A stretch of DNA of 64,000 nt. It comes from Paenibacillus sp. BIC5C1 (GTDB lineage Bacteria; Bacillota; Bacilli; Paenibacillales; Paenibacillaceae). The stretch lies in contig NZ_CP135922.1 in the NCBI RefSeq assembly GCF_032399705.1, positions 4,092,001-4,156,000 of the forward strand. The letters run 5' to 3'. Under the pieces are notes generated by a model. It was given only the letters and a program-made list of their open reading frames with translations, ran no database searches and was not told where the DNA came from. A program made the position numbers and the translations under genes. How positions within the stretch are numbered: position 1 is the first letter of the stretch; each line of letters opens with the position of its first letter. This document shows positions 1-58,424 of the stretch, in pieces.

Positions 1-137
1 TGCTGGAAACCACAGATCTTACCATTGCTCAAGTTGCGGAATCCACTGGTTTTTCCTCTCAAAGCTACTTCTCACAAAATTTCCGCCGGTGTTGCGGCCT
101 AACTCCAAGCGGTTATCGCCTTCAGACCAAAAAATGA
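1..137 (+). CDS. AraC-family regulator, C-terminal fragment cut by the window edge
   Basis: The open frame runs in from the left edge and stops with TGA at 135-137. The 44 visible residues are the second helix-turn-helix of an AraC/XylS DNA-binding domain: a short helix with IAQVAESTGF, then SSQSYFSQNFRR and the closing GLTPSGYR motif. Nothing upstream is visible, so the sensor domain is unknown. In Bacillus and Paenibacillus, regulators of this type (the Btr group) often sit beside iron-siderophore uptake genes and activate them. The next genes here are an iron-type binding lipoprotein and a Fur-controlled monooxygenase, so this is a candidate activator of that operon. The family call is firm; the target is inferred from position only. 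Confidence 0.85.
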   Translation, partial: LETTDLTIAQVAESTGFSSQSYFSQNFRRCCGLTPSGYRLQTKK

Positions 138-248: not shown

Positions 249-1196
249 TTATTGTTCAGCCAATTTCAGAAAATACTCTGAGGCCAAACGGACAGCCAGG
301 ACACTCGCACTATTGAGGGAATTATCAAATATAAGAACATGGTTGTTTTTTACGGCCTCCAGTGAGTTCCATACCTTCGAAGATTGCTTTTCCTTCACGG
401 CTGCCTTTGCAACGTCAATATCATGCTGAATAATAATATAATCGGGATTCATGTCGTATAGCCCCTCCAGCGTAAGCGCCTCGCCACCCTCAGGATATCC
501 CTTCGGTGCCAACAATCCAAAGCCTGCAGTTTGATTGTAGTACATTGTATTTTTAGATCCTTGAGCATTAAAATTGGCTTTTCCATCAACTCGCAACAAG
601 GCAAAGGTCTTATCCTCAAGAGTACCTAACTGATCTTTCGTTTTTGCTATCATTTTCTGGGTTTCCTTAATCAATTGTTCTGCAAGTTCTTCTTTTCCAA
701 CAACCTCTGCGAGCAGCATCGTTGTATTTTCCCAAGTATCGGTGTAGTCGATCAAAATGACTGGAGCAATCTTGTTCAACTCATCATAAATGGTATCCAC
801 AGACCCCTTAAAGGTTACAATCACATCAGGCTGAGCCTCAATAATCTTTTCCAAATTCGCTGAATCGCTGCCCAAATCAATAATATCAGCAGAGCCGGCG
901 TAAGGCTGTAAAGTAGCAAACTTCTCCATCGCTTCCGTCGCGCTTATGGATGAAATTGGAGGCGTATCCAGAGCAAAAAAGTAATCTAAGTACAAGGGAT
1001 GCAGCACCGCTACACGCTCTGGTCGTTTCTCAAGCACCACACCATTGTCGCTGGCATCCTTAATGTTTCTTGGCCATCCTTCACCCTCGATCTTGCTGGC
1101 CTCAGGAGTTACTGCAACGGGTTTTTCAGAACATCCAGCCAGTATCCCCCCTGCGAGTATAACTACAGATAAAATCAATCCGGTTAGTCTTTTCAT
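249..1196 (-). CDS. Iron-complex (siderophore-type) ABC substrate-binding lipoprotein
   Basis: This is a 315-residue secreted binding protein of the FecB/FhuD (Peripla_BP_2) class, expected to capture an iron chelate on the outer membrane face. It starts with a short signal peptide ending in a lipobox (LAGC), then shows the family pattern of RPERVAVL, a central helix region (ANLEKIIEAQPDVIV) and a second lobe ending in a helix with RLASEYF. ATG at 1196 was chosen because GGGAGG lies just upstream; a TTG 12 bp earlier is part of that ribosome binding site. It follows the monooxygenase gene by 31 bp and shares its Fur-boxed promoter. No permease or ATPase gene is adjacent, so it must use a transporter encoded elsewhere. 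The exact ligand is unknown. Confidence 0.85.
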   Translation of the reverse strand: MKRLTGLILSVVILAGGILAGCSEKPVAVTPEASKIEGEGWPRNIKDASDNGVVLEKRPERVAVLHPLYLDYFFALDTPPISSISATEAMEKFATLQPYAGSADIIDLGSDSANLEKIIEAQPDVIVTFKGSVDTIYDELNKIAPVILIDYTDTWENTTMLLAEVVGKEELAEQLIKETQKMIAKTKDQLGTLEDKTFALLRVDGKANFNAQGSKNTMYYNQTAGFGLLAPKGYPEGGEALTLEGLYDMNPDYIIIQHDIDVAKAAVKEKQSSKVWNSLEAVKNNHVLIFDNSLNSASVLAVRLASEYFLKLAEQ

Positions 1197-1227: not shown

Positions 1228-2535
1228 TTATGCATCCCCTAAATGATCGCGCAATGTTTCCCCTGTATATTCACTTCTGAAAAGCCCTCTTTCAACCAGC
1301 TTCGGAATCAGCTTTTCAAAAAATATTTCCATCGATTTTTCTGAACCGCCTGGCAGGGCGATGAATCCATCAATAGCACCTGCCTCAACCCGCTCAATAA
1401 TATCATTCATTACGGTCTCGACTGTTCCAACAGATACCCAATGGGCAGATCCAACAACCTCTGGCCGATTCAGAATATCTTTCACTGTAGGCTGGTATTT
1501 TGTAATATATCTTCGTAGCAGCTCGGCATGTGTACGACTGCGAACAGCCTGATCCGGATCAGGCAGCATATCCTCCGTTACGCGTTGATCCAAGGGAAAA
1601 CCTCTTAAATCAAGCCCCATCAACGATTGCAGAGAGGCATGTCTGCGCTCAAGACTTAAATGGGCATGAGCAGCCTTATGTAATTCAAGCGCTTCTTCGT
1701 GCGTATCTGCCAGGAAAAAATATAACCCCGGCAAAACTTTAATCGTGTTCGGATCACGCCCATGTTCTACAGCTCTTTTTCTCAAATCAGTTCGCAATTC
1801 CACGCCCGATTCAAGATCCGGCATAGCCGCAAAAATAGCATCTGCTACGGAAGAGGCAAAATTCCTTCCAATATCCGAAGCACCAGCTTGAAACAGAGGA
1901 ATGGTTCCCGATGGATGAGAAGGTAAAGTAAGCGGCCCTTTAACATTGAAAAATTCACCAGAATGATGAATAGCAGTCACTTTTTTCTTATCAGCAAACA
2001 TGCCTGACTCACGGTCAATAACAATAGCTTCATTCGGAAAACTATCCCAAAGCTTGCATACCACATCCGTAAATTCTATTGCCTTCGCATACCGGTCTTC
2101 CGGTGATGGCATAGGTGAATTGCCAAAATTTTCAGCACCTTCAATAGAAGTGACAATATTCCATCCAGCACGACCATTACTTAGCCAGTTCAAGGATTGA
2201 AGCTGCCGGGCAACCACATACGGTGGATTAAACGTGGTGGAAATGGTCGTAACCAGTCCAATCCGGTTGGTCTCACGAGCTATTGCTGCAAAAAACAAAG
2301 TAGGATCCGGGCTGCCGAAATTAGAAGAATCGCCTAACATCTGCGGGCTAATATACAGATAATCAGCTCTGAAAAGAAAATCGAGCTTCGAGTTCTCCGC
2401 CATTTTTGCCCAATGAATATAATAGTCAATGCTTCCTGTCTGCTCCACTCCGCTATCCGGGTGCCGCCAACCGTCACCTTTATTCCATGTTGCATTCAAG
2501 GACAATCCAATACATAGTTGCTTGTTTGAAGTCAT
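1228..2535 (-). CDS. NtaA/SnaA/DszA-type FMN-dependent monooxygenase (luciferase-like family)
   Basis: The 435-residue product has the length and pattern of the NtaA/DmoA branch of luciferase-like monooxygenases, which use reduced FMN from a partner reductase and O2 to cleave small organic molecules. Visible marks are the N-terminal barrel strand with WRHPDSG, LDFLFRADYLY, the ARETNRIGLVTTIST segment and the NGRAGWNIVTS motif typical of this branch. ATG at 2535 has an AAAGG site at suitable distance; the in-frame TTG at 2544 abuts that site and is unlikely. It is first in an operon with the iron-type lipoprotein, and a strong Fur box lies about 80 bp upstream. Sulfur or chelator (EDTA/NTA) monooxygenases belong here too, but iron control suggests a role in handling a siderophore or metal chelate. 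That substrate is inference. Confidence 0.85.
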   Translation of the reverse strand: MTSNKQLCIGLSLNATWNKGDGWRHPDSGVEQTGSIDYYIHWAKMAENSKLDFLFRADYLYISPQMLGDSSNFGSPDPTLFFAAIARETNRIGLVTTISTTFNPPYVVARQLQSLNWLSNGRAGWNIVTSIEGAENFGNSPMPSPEDRYAKAIEFTDVVCKLWDSFPNEAIVIDRESGMFADKKKVTAIHHSGEFFNVKGPLTLPSHPSGTIPLFQAGASDIGRNFASSVADAIFAAMPDLESGVELRTDLRKRAVEHGRDPNTIKVLPGLYFFLADTHEEALELHKAAHAHLSLERRHASLQSLMGLDLRGFPLDQRVTEDMLPDPDQAVRSRTHAELLRRYITKYQPTVKDILNRPEVVGSAHWVSVGTVETVMNDIIERVEAGAIDGFIALPGGSEKSMEIFFEKLIPKLVERGLFRSEYTGETLRDHLGDA

Positions 2536-2613: not shown

Positions 2614-2632
2614 AATAATGATTCTCATTATC
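2614..2632. promoter_or_regulatory. Fur box of the monooxygenase-lipoprotein operon
   Basis: AATAATGATTCTCATTATC matches the classic 19-bp Fur consensus GATAATGATTATCATTATC at 17 positions. It lies upstream of the ATG at 2535 and implies repression by iron-loaded Fur. The same 19 bases recur upstream of the exporter gene at 54.8 kb. Confidence 0.88.
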
Positions 2633-2665
2633 AAAACAAAGTGTAGCAAGGATTTAAGAAAAGTT

Positions 2666-2715
2666 AAATACACAAGTTACAAATTCGATATGCACAATTA
2701 TCTAAACTATGCTTG
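2666..2715. promoter_or_regulatory. Conserved activator-like site, copy A
   Basis: This 50-bp block matches 54979-55028 at 40 positions without gaps. Read on the minus strand it contains TTGTGCATAT and TTGTGTATTT, 22 bp start to start, like the tandem half-sites bound by AraC-type activators. It lies upstream of the Fur box relative to the monooxygenase gene. The protein that binds it is not known. Confidence 0.55.
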
Positions 2716-7758: not shown

Positions 7759-10065
7759 ATGTCTACATTATTGTATAGATTGGGGAAAACGGCTTTTCGT
7801 AAACCGGGGTATTTCATCATCGGGTGGGTATTGATTCTGGGTGTTGTCATTTCTATGATCAGCATCAATGGCATTCATATTAGTTCTGAAATGAAAATTG
7901 AAGGCACAGAATCACAAAAGGTTTTGGATCAATTAGCTAAAGAATTACCAGCCGCCTCCGGCGGGCAAGGAAGTGTTGTGTTCAAAGCACCTGACAACGA
8001 GCGTCTGGATACGCCTGAACGTTTGGCTGCAGTGATGAAAGCTGTTAGTGAAGTATACGGATTGAAGGATGTGATTAATCCTGCCGATTATGCAGCTGAA
8101 GCTGGCAGTTCGGGTGCATCCGCAGACATGGCTCAGGCTGCCAATATGCAGCAATCAGCAACAGCCTCACCTCCTCCCTATGGACCTCTAATGGTGGATG
8201 GCGTTCCTGTACCTGGTGTCCTTCTCTCTTCTGATGGTAAAGTTGCTCTGTTTCAATTTCAGTTTACCATTGAGCAGTCTGCAATTACGCAAGATGTATT
8301 TGATTCTGTAATTGACTCCGTTATGTCTGCCCAACAAGGGACCAACATCACCGTGTTACCGGGCGAAACGCTCAAAACAGTAGCTATTGGAGTAGGCTCG
8401 GCAGAGATTATTGGACTGATCATTGCTGTCATTGTTTTGTTAATCACCTTGGGTTCCGTTGTTGCGGCAGGTCTGCCACTTGTCACCGCACTCCTCGGCG
8501 TTGCCATTGGAGTGGGTGGTGCATTCTCGATCTCCAAATTTATAGAAATGCCGAGTGTCACTTCCGTCCTGGCTCTCATGGTTGGTCTGGCCGTCGGAAT
8601 CGATTATGCTCTCTTCATTGTTAATCGCCAGCGCCGAATGATTATTGATCAGCGCTTGAGCGCACAAGAAGCAACAGCAAGAGCGATTGGCACATCGGGT
8701 AGCGCTGTATTCTTTGCTGGATTAACCGTTATTATTGCACTTTGCGGTATGCTTGTCATCGGCCTCACATTCTTATCTACGATGGCTTTAGTTGCCGCAG
8801 CTACCGTTCTTATTAATGTATTTGTTGCCCTTACTCTATTGCCCGCTTTACTTGGATTGGTGGGTGAACGCATCTGTTCCACTAAAGCACGCGAGAAAAG
8901 TACAAAACATCCTAAAGCGGCTGGCCACGGGATCGCTCACAGATGGGTGAAATTCGTTATCAAGTATCGTTGGATCACAATTATTGCCATCGTCGTGCTT
9001 CTTGGCGCGGCAGCCACTCCTATAACAAAAATGGAAATGGGTATTCCGGGAGCTTCTTCAGCTAATCTGGACACGACAGCAAGACAGGGTTATGACGCAA
9101 TATCCGAAGGCTTTGGAGAAGGATTTAACGGACCACTTATTCTGGTCGCGGAGCCTAACAATTCTTCCGCGCAGGTGACTCCGGAACTCTTGGGCAATGT
9201 CATGAAGGAACTCCAAAGCCAAAATAACGTTGCACAGGTTACACCGCTAGGCATGACAGAAGATCTGGCTATCTTTAGTCTTATTCCCGGCACAGGTCCT
9301 AACGATAAAATCACCAAAGATTTGGTGAATGAACTACGATCTACTGAATCGAGCGTTGCGAAGACGAATGACGTTAAGATTGGTGTTACGGGATTCACTG
9401 CCGTTAACATTGATATGTCAGCGAAATTAGCGCAGGTATTCCCTATCTATGTAGGAATTATTATCTTGCTGTCGCTTATCATTCTGCTGTTGGTATTTCG
9501 TTCGATCATCGTTCCAATTAAAGCAACTATCGGTTTCCTTCTTAGCATTCTGGCTACTTTCGGGATCACTACTGCTGTATTCCAATGGGGCTGGCTCCAT
9601 TCGCTCTTTGGTTTCGACACTGGCGGCCCGCTGCTGAGCTTTATGCCCATCATCGTGACAGGTATCCTGTATGGCTTGGCAATGGACTATCAGGTCTTCC
9701 TTGTCAGTTCGATGCGGGAATCATACGTACACGGTCACAGAGGAACAGAGTCTGTTGTTCATGGTTATAATCAAGTAAGTCGCGTAGTTGTTGCAGCAGC
9801 TGTAATCATGGTCTCGGTATTTGCAGGGTTCATCTTCACAGATGACGTCATGATCAAACAGATTGGTTTTACATTAGCTGTAGGAATTCTGATTGATGCT
9901 TTCATTATTCGGATGGGATTGGTTCCTGCCATCATGGCTATTTTCGGTGACAAGGCTTGGTCACTTCCAAAATGGCTGGATCGCATTCTACCAAATCTCG
10001 ACGTTGAGGGCGAGAAGCTGATTGCTACGCTTCACGCTAAAGATCATTCCAACTCCAAGTCTTAA
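7759..10065 (+). CDS. MMPL/RND-family membrane exporter (YdfJ-like)
   Basis: The 768-residue membrane protein has the two-fold MMPL plan: one transmembrane helix, a large extracellular domain, then five or so helices, all repeated once. The family proton-relay motifs are clear in both halves (GLAVGIDYALFIVNRQR in the first, YGLAMDYQVFLVSS in the second). MMPL proteins of Firmicutes export lipids, peptides or drugs using the proton gradient. GGGAGTG precedes ATG at 7759. It is the second gene of the TetR operon and ends at a strong terminator. The first extracellular loop carries a low-complexity stretch rich in Ala, Ser and Pro. The substrate is not predictable. Confidence 0.92.
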   Translation: MSTLLYRLGKTAFRKPGYFIIGWVLILGVVISMISINGIHISSEMKIEGTESQKVLDQLAKELPAASGGQGSVVFKAPDNERLDTPERLAAVMKAVSEVYGLKDVINPADYAAEAGSSGASADMAQAANMQQSATASPPPYGPLMVDGVPVPGVLLSSDGKVALFQFQFTIEQSAITQDVFDSVIDSVMSAQQGTNITVLPGETLKTVAIGVGSAEIIGLIIAVIVLLITLGSVVAAGLPLVTALLGVAIGVGGAFSISKFIEMPSVTSVLALMVGLAVGIDYALFIVNRQRRMIIDQRLSAQEATARAIGTSGSAVFFAGLTVIIALCGMLVIGLTFLSTMALVAAATVLINVFVALTLLPALLGLVGERICSTKAREKSTKHPKAAGHGIAHRWVKFVIKYRWITIIAIVVLLGAAATPITKMEMGIPGASSANLDTTARQGYDAISEGFGEGFNGPLILVAEPNNSSAQVTPELLGNVMKELQSQNNVAQVTPLGMTEDLAIFSLIPGTGPNDKITKDLVNELRSTESSVAKTNDVKIGVTGFTAVNIDMSAKLAQVFPIYVGIIILLSLIILLLVFRSIIVPIKATIGFLLSILATFGITTAVFQWGWLHSLFGFDTGGPLLSFMPIIVTGILYGLAMDYQVFLVSSMRESYVHGHRGTESVVHGYNQVSRVVVAAAVIMVSVFAGFIFTDDVMIKQIGFTLAVGILIDAFIIRMGLVPAIMAIFGDKAWSLPKWLDRILPNLDVEGEKLIATLHAKDHSNSKS

Positions 10066-14200: not shown

Positions 14201-15376
14201 TTAAGAGCTTGTTTTTACCTCTCTAAGTTTCCCTGTCGAATCTCTAAGGATAATATCCAGAAACTTATGCGCTGCATTATGTGAGAAGCTGAGCTTAAGA
14301 TTCATATCCGATTCCAGTGTTGCTTTAGAGCTATATGCAAACATTTTTTCCTCATAGTGCTCTAAAGCCGTTTTTAGATCGCTGTGATTAGCAAGAGATA
14401 AACCTAACTCGGCTGCATCAAGCATGGCAATATTCGCTCCTTTTCCTGCAAATGGAGACATTAAGTGTGCAGAATCTCCTATGAGAGTGACCCCGTCCTT
14501 ATGCGTCCAGCTGTGGTCGATTGGCAGCATATAGATTCTACGAGGCAACATCTCTCCATCAGAATAACGAATGTAATTTTTCAAGTCATCACTCCAATCG
14601 GATAATAATTGGAGCAGAGATTCTTTTGCCATGGCTGGCTGTTCGAAGTTAATACCGCAATGATCCAGCCATTCTTTCTCAATCTTGAAAGCCAAATAAG
14701 CTCGGATGCGGCCGTCACCATTAAGCTGAGCCATAATCGCTTTTTGATCTTGGAATGCAAACATACTCCCTTTCCCGTTAAACTCGGCTAAATCCGGGTG
14801 ATTTTCATCAACATTTGATATCCCCATCTCAACCGCGCTTATTCCCGTATAGATGGGCTGCACATCCGAGAGAAACTCACGAACTTTTGAAAAGGCACCG
14901 TCAGCACCAACAACAAGATCTGCAATTTCTGTATGCTCATTCTCAAATTGCAACTCAAGCTGACCATTGTCTAGTGAATGTATACTTTTTAGGTGATGGC
15001 CCCATTTTATTGTGTTTGGTTCAATAGAATCCAATAACAATTTGCGAAGTACGCCACGATCTATCTCAGGTCTATGGTTATCTTCGGGACCTGAAATTTC
15101 GTCCCAATAGACTTTTCCGGTTTTATCCAGAAGTCGTAAGTCCTGACCTTCATAACGAGCATTCACTTCGAATTCCTTTATCAGTCCAGCTACCTCCAAT
15201 GCAAATTGACCTGACTCAGGATGCATATCAAGTGTGCCGCCTTGTTGACGAGAGTTGGAGGAAGGTTCACGCTCATATACAGTAGCCTTCATTCCATTTT
15301 GCTGCAGAATACGAGCCAGCGTTAATCCCGAAGGACCACCACCAATGATAGCAATACGGGCATTTTTATTTGACAT
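14201..15376 (-). CDS. FAD-dependent monooxygenase resembling TetX
   Basis: The 391-residue protein is a single-component class A flavin monooxygenase. It has the Rossmann motif GGGPSGL near the N-terminus, a GADGAFSKVR motif in the middle and GDSAHLMSPFAGKGAN for the FAD ribityl chain. Segments such as VYEREP, GGTLDMH, PEIDRGVLRKLLLDSI and the C-terminal ALEHYEEKMFAYS run parallel to TetX, which hydroxylates and inactivates tetracyclines. Whether this one accepts tetracycline is unknown; relatives act on many aromatics. ATG at 15376 is preferred over TTG at 15394 because AAGGGAGA precedes it. A near-perfect Fur box lies 86 bp upstream. Confidence 0.85.
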   Translation of the reverse strand: MSNKNARIAIIGGGPSGLTLARILQQNGMKATVYEREPSSNSRQQGGTLDMHPESGQFALEVAGLIKEFEVNARYEGQDLRLLDKTGKVYWDEISGPEDNHRPEIDRGVLRKLLLDSIEPNTIKWGHHLKSIHSLDNGQLELQFENEHTEIADLVVGADGAFSKVREFLSDVQPIYTGISAVEMGISNVDENHPDLAEFNGKGSMFAFQDQKAIMAQLNGDGRIRAYLAFKIEKEWLDHCGINFEQPAMAKESLLQLLSDWSDDLKNYIRYSDGEMLPRRIYMLPIDHSWTHKDGVTLIGDSAHLMSPFAGKGANIAMLDAAELGLSLANHSDLKTALEHYEEKMFAYSSKATLESDMNLKLSFSHNAAHKFLDIILRDSTGKLREVKTSS

Positions 15377-15461
15377 ATGAAAATCTCCCTTCAATCTTCA
15401 ATGAATTGTTAAGATAAATAGAATACCATTAAAATATTATTTACCTGTAAACAATAATAGT

Positions 15462-15476
15462 TGATAAAGATTATCA
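15462..15476. promoter_or_regulatory. Fur-type box upstream of the TetX-like gene
   Basis: TGATAAAGATTATCA matches the 15-bp Bacillus Fur consensus TGATAATnATTATCA at every fixed position but one. It is less similar to PerR or Zur boxes. It predicts iron control of the TetX-like monooxygenase. Confidence 0.7.
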
Positions 15477-15801
15477 TTGTCAAATAATAACGTGGTGATG
15501 TCCATATCATAGAATACTAACGTTTGTTTTTAGAAAAAACATGCTAGAATTAAGAAAGTATCATTATATTCTGACATTCAGCTTGAAACCGATAAAATTC
15601 TTGCTGTGTTTCTCTTTCCAATTTAAATGTTAACCCCTCTACTCATAAAAATATTACAACCCAATTTATTGTAAACTTGTTAACTAAATTATTGAACTAA
15701 ATGCTATTCACCATACGTTAAAACACGTTAGCCTTCTGTTTATAAAAATCCAGACATGTGTTGGTCCTCTCATGTGAGGCAAGATTTCATACTCACAAAA
15801 A

Positions 15802-53384: not shown

Positions 53385-54848
53385 CTAGTTCAAGCGATTG
53401 ACCACTACTCTTTTGATGAAAAGGGAAAGCACAAACCCAACAAAGGCAATGATCATGCCAAATATGAACGCATCCTGTACACCGGCAGTCATTGAAAGCG
53501 GGATAAGTGAAGAGTCGTTTGGATTCGTTGCCTGACTCATATATTTGGCTTGTCCATTACTCATCACGCTTACCGCAACAGCTGTACCAATCGCACCAAA
53601 TACCTGCTGCATTGTGTTGATGATTGCCGTTCCGTGCGGATAAAGCTGCGGTGGAAGCTGGTTGAGGCCATTCGTTTGGGCAGGCATCATGATCATTGAA
53701 ACGCCGATCATCATAATAACATGAACCATGATAATAAAGGCCACCGAGGAAGCAAGGGTAACGCCAGAGAACAACCAGAGTGCCACAGCTATTAAGACGA
53801 TCCCAGGAAGAACGATCCATTTGGGGCCATATTTATCGAACAGCCTGCCCATAATCGGAGCCAAAAGTCCGTTCAATGCACTCGCGGGCAACAGGATCAG
53901 ACCTGCGCTAAGCGTGGAGAACGCAAGGCCTACTTGCAGGTACATTGGCAGTACGAGCATCGAGGACAAGATGACCATCATGCAAAGTGCAACCATTAGC
54001 GCACCAATTGTAAACATCGGGTACTTAAAGGCGCGCAGATCAAGCAGCGGATTGGGTATTTTCAACTGTCGAATTGTGAAAAGAATAAGCGCAACAAGAC
54101 CGATTGCGAGGGAGATGACTACAGTAGAACTGGTCCATCCCCCAGCCCCTTCCCCAGCGCTGCTGAAACCATAAACAATACCTCCAAAGCCTAGGGTCGA
54201 CAACAACATGGACAGTAAATCAATACGCGGCTTGGTCGTTTCAGAAACATTTTGCATCGTGAGAATTCCAATGATAAGAGCCATGACAAGAAAAACAAAT
54301 GAAAGCCAAAAGATATAATGCCAGTTCAGCGCTTCAATGAGCAAACCGGCAATTGTCGGCCCGACCGCAGGGGCGAACATGATAACGAGTCCAACCAGTC
54401 CCATGGCTGCACCGCGCTTTTCGACCGGAAAAATGAGCAGTATCGTATTAAACATAAGTGGTAGTAACAGCGCGGTACCTACTGCCTGAATAATACGCGA
54501 AACCATTAATACACCGAAACTTGAAGCAACGGCTCCAATCAGAGTACCGAGACATGAAAATAGAAGTGACGTTATGAACAGTTGTCTTGTTGTAAAACGC
54601 TGCATTAACAGTCCTGATAGCGGAACGAGTACCCCCATGGTCAGCAAATAGCCTGTTGTCAGCCATTGAATGGTCGCCGATCCAATGTTGAAGATCTGCA
54701 TCAAATCGGTAAGCGCTACGTTTAACGCCGTTTCACCGAACAGACCGATAAACCCACTCATCAAAAAAGCGAGAACGATTGGAAATACTCTAATGTCTTT
54801 CTTGACTGCTTTAATTCCAGCATCGGATGTGGCTGTAGAAGCTCGCAT
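53385..54848 (-). CDS. DHA2-family (EmrB-like) major facilitator exporter
   Basis: The 487-residue protein has 14 membrane helices and DHA2 motifs: ATIQWLTTGYLLTMGVLVPLSG (motif D1 region), MVSRIIQAVGTALLLPLMFN, and MGLVGLVIMFAPAVGPTIAGLLIEALNWHYIFW (motif C and following). Such pumps use the proton gradient to export drugs or siderophores. AAGGAGTG precedes the ATG. A Fur box lies about 80 bp upstream, in a region homologous to that of the monooxygenase operon at 2.6 kb. Export of a siderophore or related chelate is inferred from this control. Confidence 0.92.
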   Translation of the reverse strand: MRASTATSDAGIKAVKKDIRVFPIVLAFLMSGFIGLFGETALNVALTDLMQIFNIGSATIQWLTTGYLLTMGVLVPLSGLLMQRFTTRQLFITSLLFSCLGTLIGAVASSFGVLMVSRIIQAVGTALLLPLMFNTILLIFPVEKRGAAMGLVGLVIMFAPAVGPTIAGLLIEALNWHYIFWLSFVFLVMALIIGILTMQNVSETTKPRIDLLSMLLSTLGFGGIVYGFSSAGEGAGGWTSSTVVISLAIGLVALILFTIRQLKIPNPLLDLRAFKYPMFTIGALMVALCMMVILSSMLVLPMYLQVGLAFSTLSAGLILLPASALNGLLAPIMGRLFDKYGPKWIVLPGIVLIAVALWLFSGVTLASSVAFIIMVHVIMMIGVSMIMMPAQTNGLNQLPPQLYPHGTAIINTMQQVFGAIGTAVAVSVMSNGQAKYMSQATNPNDSSLIPLSMTAGVQDAFIFGMIIAFVGFVLSLFIKRVVVNRLN

Positions 54849-54924: not shown

Positions 54925-54943
54925 AATAATGATTCTCATTATC
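54925..54943. promoter_or_regulatory. Fur box of the exporter gene
   Basis: AATAATGATTCTCATTATC is identical over 19 bp to the box at 2614-2632 and matches the Fur consensus at 17 of 19 positions. It lies about 80 bp before the exporter's ATG. Confidence 0.88.
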
Positions 54944-54978
54944 GATATACACAGTGTAGCAATTGCTCCTACAAATGA

Positions 54979-55028
54979 AAATACACAAATTCCAAAAACG
55001 ATATGTATAATTATCTAATTCAAGCTTG
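54979..55028. promoter_or_regulatory. Conserved activator-like site, copy B
   Basis: This block matches 2666-2715 at 40 of 50 positions. On the minus strand it holds TTATACATAT and TTGTGTATTT, again 22 bp apart. The distance to the Fur box differs from copy A by only 2 bp. It may bind an AraC-type activator. The remaining gap to 55273 shows a lone TATAAT at 55085-55090, a possible promoter for the MaoC gene. Confidence 0.55.

Positions 55029-55796: not shown

Positions 55797-58424
<2,628 letters not shown>

Follow-up and report, generated by a model that had tools for sequence, protein, structure and literature searches.

Our sequence analysis indicates that three separate places in the genome of Paenibacillus sp. 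BIC5C1 form one iron-chelate regulon that is switched jointly by Fur and by an AraC-type regulator, here called AraC_C; we put the probability of this whole explanation at about 0.8. The three places are an operon coding for an FMN-dependent monooxygenase and an iron-chelate binding lipoprotein (A), the gene of an exporter (B) and the gene of a ferredoxin-NADP reductase (C). A and B belong to the stretch of 64,000 nucleotides that was analysed (the window), and C lies about 2 Mb from it. All three carry the same promoter module, the genes lie in a compact locus in relatives, and the promoter site and AraC_C occur together across the family. Shared control of A, B and C by Fur and AraC_C is thus highly probable.

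The original prediction held that the regions upstream of A (2614-2715) and B (54925-55028), 52 kb apart, are homologous, and the alignment bears this out. The 19-bp Fur box is the same letter for letter, AGTGTAGCAA is common to both, and 40 positions agree in the best ungapped 50-bp block, for which the second-best position in the window, on either strand, gives 28. The half-sites on the minus strand are spaced by 22 bp in A and B alike. The local alignment of A with B scores 82 (mean 17.7 and maximum 32 in 500 dinucleotide shuffles), and 53 with the Fur box taken out of both (shuffle maximum 31). In the direction of the genes, the module consists of a distal half-site, a proximal half-site, an extended -10 and a Fur box (Table 1). 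The role of the extended -10 at A is suggested by its position; assuming a 17-bp spacer, the proximal half-site would overlap a weak -35, and the Fur box would cover the expected start point. The two half-sites are about two helical turns apart with the nearer one at the -35, as in AraC-type promoters, and the Fur box, just past the -10, differs from the palindrome used in the search by one mismatch at each of A, B and C, as in a Fur regulon; with up to 3 mismatches allowed, the palindrome matches at 38 distinct places in the genome. The half-sites and their 22-bp spacing are also visible by eye in LLM_A upstream regions that were not picked by pattern.

The genome, a single contig of 7,078,281 bases, was searched with the 121-bp A promoter for further copies, as the original prediction had proposed. 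It returned A, B and a third copy (C, at C1:2107780-2107876, E 5e-9) between the AraC_C and FNR_C genes; the original prediction had missed this copy, the gene for the reductase and, 2 Mb away, the likely regulator. The fourth match (2732139) spans just 29 bp around a Fur box. With two degenerate patterns, A, B and C were again recovered at 0-1 mismatch, and every further match (one and three, respectively) had 3 mismatches. Without the Fur box, C aligns with A at a score of 36 (best shuffle 27) but with B at 22, no better than shuffles, which reach 27, so the case for copy C rests largely on relatives. When 37 of the 38 Fur-box places (all except that at window position 15463) were scored for activator sites, the best of the other Fur boxes reached 6.4, inside the background, whereas A, B and C score 42-45. 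No convincing LLM remnant was seen between site C and FNR_C. Other Fur-box promoters have features of their own: in L021 a TCGTCCATT direct repeat, 22 bp apart and at a similar distance, is possibly the site of a Btr-type regulator, and a similar repeat is less clear in L040 and L020. In the window, an FAD_binding_3 monooxygenase gene (14201-15394, minus strand) has a Fur-like box upstream (15463-15481, 3 mismatches) and no activator site.

Table 1. Features of the proposed regulon and of its surroundings (window positions unless a contig or locus is named).
Feature	Position	Strand	Evidence or remark
SBP_A, iron-chelate binding lipoprotein	249..1195	-	PF01497, 81.3 bits; lipobox LAGC (by eye)
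LLM_A, FMN-dependent NtaA/DmoA-family monooxygenase	1228..2535	-	TIGR03860, 398 bits (cut-off 279.7, passed)
Fur box A, GATAATGAGAATCATTATT	2614..2632	-	Identical to box B; 1 mismatch to searched palindrome
Putative extended -10 of A, TTGCTACACT (AGTGTAGCAA in the original prediction)	2640..2649	-	Same or similar in most related sites
Promoter-proximal activator half-site of A (putative), TTGTGTATTT	2666..2675	-	Overlaps expected -35; conserved in 50 site sequences, which were chosen by similarity
Distal activator half-site of A (putative), TTGTGCATAT	2688..2697	-	22 bp upstream; conserved; eroded in Marseille-Q4541 (no AraC_C)
MFS_B, LmrB-like DHA2 exporter	53385..54848	-	TIGR00711, 317.7 bits (cut-off 230.2)
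Fur box B	54925..54943	-	Identical to box A
Putative extended -10 of B, TTGCTACACT	54953..54962	-	Sequence and related sites
Proximal half-site of B (putative), TTGTGTATTT	54979..54988	-	Sequence and related sites
Distal half-site of B (putative), TTATACATAT	55001..55010	-	Sequence and related sites
AraC_C, 271 aa	C1:2106957-2107772 (L006:8958-9773)		5' of site C; AraC-type HTH
AraC gene adjoining operon A, 3' end (whole gene L005:9298-10137)	1..137	+	Not in regulon

In other Paenibacillus, Brevibacillus and Lysinibacillus the parts are found in a compact locus made up of AraC_C, the site with its Fur box, the FMN-dependent monooxygenase and, variably, the reductase, the binding protein, permeases and the exporter; in the window clade the same parts are scattered, and the pieces carry the same promoter. 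A scan of named genomes for LLM_A gave 35 loci, 8 in the scattered clade and 27 outside it, the latter reduced to 26 for upstream comparisons by one locus short of upstream DNA (L130). AraC_C, 58-71% identical, lies directly 5' of LLM_A in 23 of these 26 (in L134, 5' of an LLM_A fragment). The site precedes LLM_A in 23 of the 26 as well, the exceptions being L112, L126 and L134, the last of which lacks the 5' part of LLM_A. In the flanks inspected, 10 of the 27 loci have FNR_C and one more has a fragment of it; SBP_A has an orthologue in 9, and MFS_B is present in 2. Since FNR_C, permeases and exporter are absent from many compact loci as fetched, the minimal unit appears to be AraC_C plus the monooxygenase. 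In P. selenitireducens (L132) the order is AraC_C, site, monooxygenase, reductase, binding protein, second site and exporter. Two loci (L109 and L217) include two further FecCD-type permeases, and two Lysinibacillus loci (L113 and L123) have an extra site upstream of AraC_C itself. The binding protein, monooxygenase and exporter, which had been proposed to form one regulon with an AraC gene, are found side by side in relatives, but the AraC gene named in that proposal does not belong with them. Judged by matches to reference proteins and by sequence starts, no biosynthesis gene recurs beside the compact loci, which favours an imported chelate that is made by other organisms.

LLM_A (ATG at 2535 preferred as start over TTG at 2544; closest homologues 434-435 aa) passes the NtaA/DmoA family model. 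Its nearest solved chain is YtnJ/MoxC, and it also matches the chains of the NTA and EDTA monooxygenases. NtaA and EmoA use metal chelates, and the substrates of the NtaA/DmoA family vary widely. The nearest solved chain to SBP_A is 2why (68.7 bits), which we take to be FeuA, and there is weak similarity to FeuA-, SirA- and HtsA-type chains. MFS_B resembles the LmrB-type DHA2 exporters, with 695.2 bits against the Lmr(B) lincomycin exporter model (NF000060), but it is below the cut-off of 800 and differs from them in lying 3' of a module site at 6 of the 44 places found in the family. Close to it in the window is a gene of the rifamycin-inactivating phosphotransferase type (55797-58412, minus strand; NF041857, 1477.8 bits, cut-off 999), which also exceeds the cut-offs of PEP-synthase models; G057 and G073 have a gene of equal length (871 aa) at the same place.

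FNR_C, 3' of site C (likely start L006:10013), codes for a TrxR-like ferredoxin-NADP reductase. Among solved chains it is closest to B. cereus FNR1 (6gar, 506 bits) and then to 5twb (350 bits), presumably S. aureus IruO. The Val that stacks on the FAD (V329 in B. cereus FNR1) is kept in FNR_C; GMVSSHN is aligned in FNR_C and 6gar, and 8c3m has His at that position. According to PMC10294844, this Val distinguishes a class of reductases assigned to iron acquisition; IruO acts on hydroxamate siderophores as a reductase and also supplies IsdG/IsdI, and the FNR1 and IruO genes have Fur boxes. FNR_C differs from FNR1 and IruO in that an AraC site is common to it and the monooxygenase, and the two are often found in one gene cluster. 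In locus L089 a gene for a small ABM-domain monooxygenase (8372-8668, minus strand; PF03992, 85.6 bits) is convergent to FNR_C; the IsdG model, run against this gene, gave no match, and a similar frame is present in other loci of the genus.

The simplest account of these gene families would be that Fur and AraC_C govern import, the release of iron and export, and we consider it fairly likely that the genes process a ferric chelate. The regulon might instead, under the same control by Fur and AraC_C, serve a monooxygenase that acts on an organosulfur compound, an amine or a siderophore-like poison, given that YtnJ, DszA and dimethyl-sulfide monooxygenase are among the nearest solved relatives of LLM_A and that MFS_B, being LmrB-like, belongs to an antibiotic-efflux family. 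This reading is rather unlikely: the monooxygenase is accompanied by Fur boxes that are nearly perfect, by a binding protein for iron chelates, by a reductase of the IruO class and, in some loci, by FecCD permeases.

AraC_C is likely the activator of the module, as judged from the sequence comparisons. In profile searches it matched only AraC-type HTH models and, below threshold, a cupin model. The structural model and fold search suggest an AraC/BgaR/RhaR-like cupin plus HTH; the placement of the domains is uncertain at a mean pLDDT of 76.9 and a pTM of 0.49. Fur and the AraC-type activator Btr (YbbB) together control the promoters of genes for iron-chelate uptake (feuABC-ybbA), so the combination of Fur with an AraC-type activator is an architecture already known. 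The parallel with Btr that had been drawn for A and B is only partial: the shared module agrees with it, but the N-terminal domain of AraC_C is cupin-type, without the binding-protein-like domain that is fused to the HTH in Btr-type regulators, and AraC_C scores 73.1 bits with the Btr equivalog model (cut-off 900). The targets also differ, being here the monooxygenase, reductase, binding protein and exporter. According to PMC3896406, Btr of B. subtilis is encoded beside feuA, and Fur and Btr are listed as regulators of feuA.

A gene with the Btr domain order, an AraC plus binding-protein regulator (L006:3938-5653), does lie upstream of AraC_C in the window genome, and in principle it could be the activator with AraC_C as a bystander. 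We regard this as very unlikely, because the Btr-like gene, together with permeases, accompanies the AraC_C locus in just 7 of 13 genus loci, and in the fetched loci outside the clade a single match to it (BtrC) was tabulated, at 28% (L127). Equally improbable is that AraC_C is a repressor: half-sites at and upstream of a weak -35 are the usual position of an activator in AraC-type promoters, and repression is already supplied by Fur. The original prediction pointed to the AraC gene adjoining operon A. Its position is as described, with 112 bp separating its end from that of the binding-protein gene, but a role of this gene as the activator is hardly credible: it codes for a cupin AraC and faces a sugar-type ABC SBP_bac_1 gene, it is beside operon A in just 3 of 12 genus genomes (the window genome, G015 and G058), and it has no match of at least 50% in the fetched loci outside the clade. 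A further gene of the AraC plus binding-protein type (L006:13092-14585) is truncated to 497 aa in the window genome, but reaches 678-686 aa in L088, L089, L091, L092, L095 and L097.

Across 75 genomes of the genus, a 28-bp site pattern that fixes the 22-bp spacing (up to 2 mismatches) was found in 13 genomes at 29 places, compared with 7 matches of the reversed control pattern. All 29 places are inside the system: 12 before LLM_A, 4 before MFS_B and 13 directly after AraC_C, 11 of the last preceding an intact FNR_C. The Fur box is kept at 27 of the 29. One exception, G042, counts against the proposal: it keeps a good activator site although its AraC_C and FNR_C are broken, as is the remainder of that promoter. 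In the other, G066, AraC_C and the A site stay, but FNR_C and the remaining promoter have been lost. Unbroken AraC_C (E 1e-60, the best 34 candidates per genome being scored) is present in 12 of the 75 genomes, which are exactly those with the A site. LLM_A (E 1e-150) is present in 13, namely those 12 and G045, so 12 of its 13 carriers have AraC_C. MFS_B (E 1e-200) occurs in five genomes, four of them with the site; upstream of the fifth copy (G072, 80% identical) a search found neither site nor Fur box, and G072 has neither LLM_A nor AraC_C. The unit of site, LLM_A and SBP_A is constant in the 12 genomes and its flanks vary.

In 394 genomes of the family, a stricter 35-bp site, again with fixed spacing (up to 3 mismatches), was found in 29 genomes at 44 places, and the reversed control pattern gave no match. 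Twenty-three places are before LLM_A, 10 before FNR_C (one broken), 6 before MFS_B and 5 elsewhere, these last being in G066, G025, G027 and, in decayed form, in a second cluster of G261 and a copy in G269. One of the 44, G289:486999, is the L132 site. AraC_C (E 1e-85, best 6 candidates per genome) is present in 36 genomes, and all 36 have a site, 27 by the pattern searches and 9 in weaker form. On the strict count, 25 genomes have both, 11 AraC_C only, 4 the site only and 354 neither (Fisher p 6e-27; the genomes are related to one another, so that the counts are not independent). The 11 comprise G040 and G041, whose site was found in the 28-bp search, and nine genomes in which a weaker site, matching at 24-31 of 37 positions, lies with a Fur box beside AraC_C; the two weakest (24 and 25 of 37) barely exceed the best match on the opposite strand of those loci (23), and their position and Fur box are the only grounds for counting them. 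Genomes with the site only are G042 (broken AraC_C), G202 (AraC_C cut by the contig end), G025 and G027. The AraC_C matches in G215 and G237 were counted as whole since each crosses a single stop codon, and the open frame in G237 is 268 aa. G025 and G027 count against the proposal: neither has AraC_C at E 1e-60 or at 1e-85, yet each has a site-like promoter with a Fur box, and the genes that follow it are unrelated; in both (L215 and L216) the promoter adjoins a 509-aa gene common to the two, followed by different genes, and these may be remnants. G269 (L211, L212) and G261 (L213, L214) each have two copies of the system. One copy in G261 has a broken AraC_C and LLM pieces, yet its binding-protein frame is whole, and G269 has an extra decayed site after LLM.

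Two LLM_A carriers without AraC_C provide natural tests, and in both the site is eroded or absent (background of the site score: median 18, 95th percentile 21 of 37). In Marseille-Q4541 (L112, G045), which has LLM_A, the Fur box and the -10, erosion affects the distal half-site and the site scores 25 of 37; in Cohnella sp. SGD-V74 (L126) no full-length match to AraC_C exceeds 35%, and the site is absent, with a score of 17 of 37. That the module is a dispersed repeat with no effect on transcription, a way in which the original prediction might have failed, is extremely improbable despite its several copies, the decayed orphans in G269 and G261 and the two site-like copies at unrelated genes (G025 and G027), because 39 of the 44 places precede one of three gene families, the likeness among the copies in the window genome ends with the promoter, at 95-105 bp, and the module is eroded or missing in these two carriers.

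Scattering of the locus probably happened three times: in the window clade, in Cohnella phaseoli and in G361. C. phaseoli (L122) has the site at LLM_A (26 of 37) and AraC_C elsewhere, there followed by a site, a Fur box, a 33-residue LLM remnant and SBP_A. G361 has AraC_C, site, FNR and SBP at one place and site and LLM at another. A tree of LLM_A with 46 rows places the scattered clade, represented by 9 rows for 9 of its 12 genomes, on one branch with support 100/99, and as this branch is nested among compact loci, scattering is derived in the window clade. C. phaseoli is on a distant branch. G361 is near the scattered clade, and since the dividing fork has support of only 88/85, a separate event in G361 is likely but not settled. 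Each separated piece keeps the same promoter, so that the regulon may have outlived the loss of the operon.

We propose that upon iron shortage Fur would leave the box covering the expected start point, and AraC_C would then bind both half-sites as a dimer and touch RNA polymerase at the weak -35. Operon A, the exporter at B and the FNR1/IruO-type reductase at C would thus be turned on together. A ferric chelate would be taken up, its iron freed by reduction and/or by oxidative breakdown of the ligand, and the remainder presumably exported; as the ligand of AraC_C one would naturally suspect the chelate or its product. Neither the monooxygenase-centred gene set nor an NtaA/EmoA-type monooxygenase with Fur-box control, an IruO-type reductase and an iron-chelate binding protein was found in the literature searched by title and start of abstract, which covered few subscription papers and is weak evidence of novelty. 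We see an even chance that this is a new iron-acquisition pathway of Bacillota, in which an FMN-dependent monooxygenase breaks the ligand alongside IruO-type reduction under Fur and a cupin AraC, and which was scattered, probably three times, with its promoter kept.

Esterase and reductase routes of iron release from chelates are known, and if the proposal is true, monooxygenase-based release would join them. It would also mean that an operon was broken up while its regulation was kept, since the pieces carry the same promoter of roughly 95 bp, and the regulator to test is named. The motif is precise enough for annotating the system across Paenibacillaceae.
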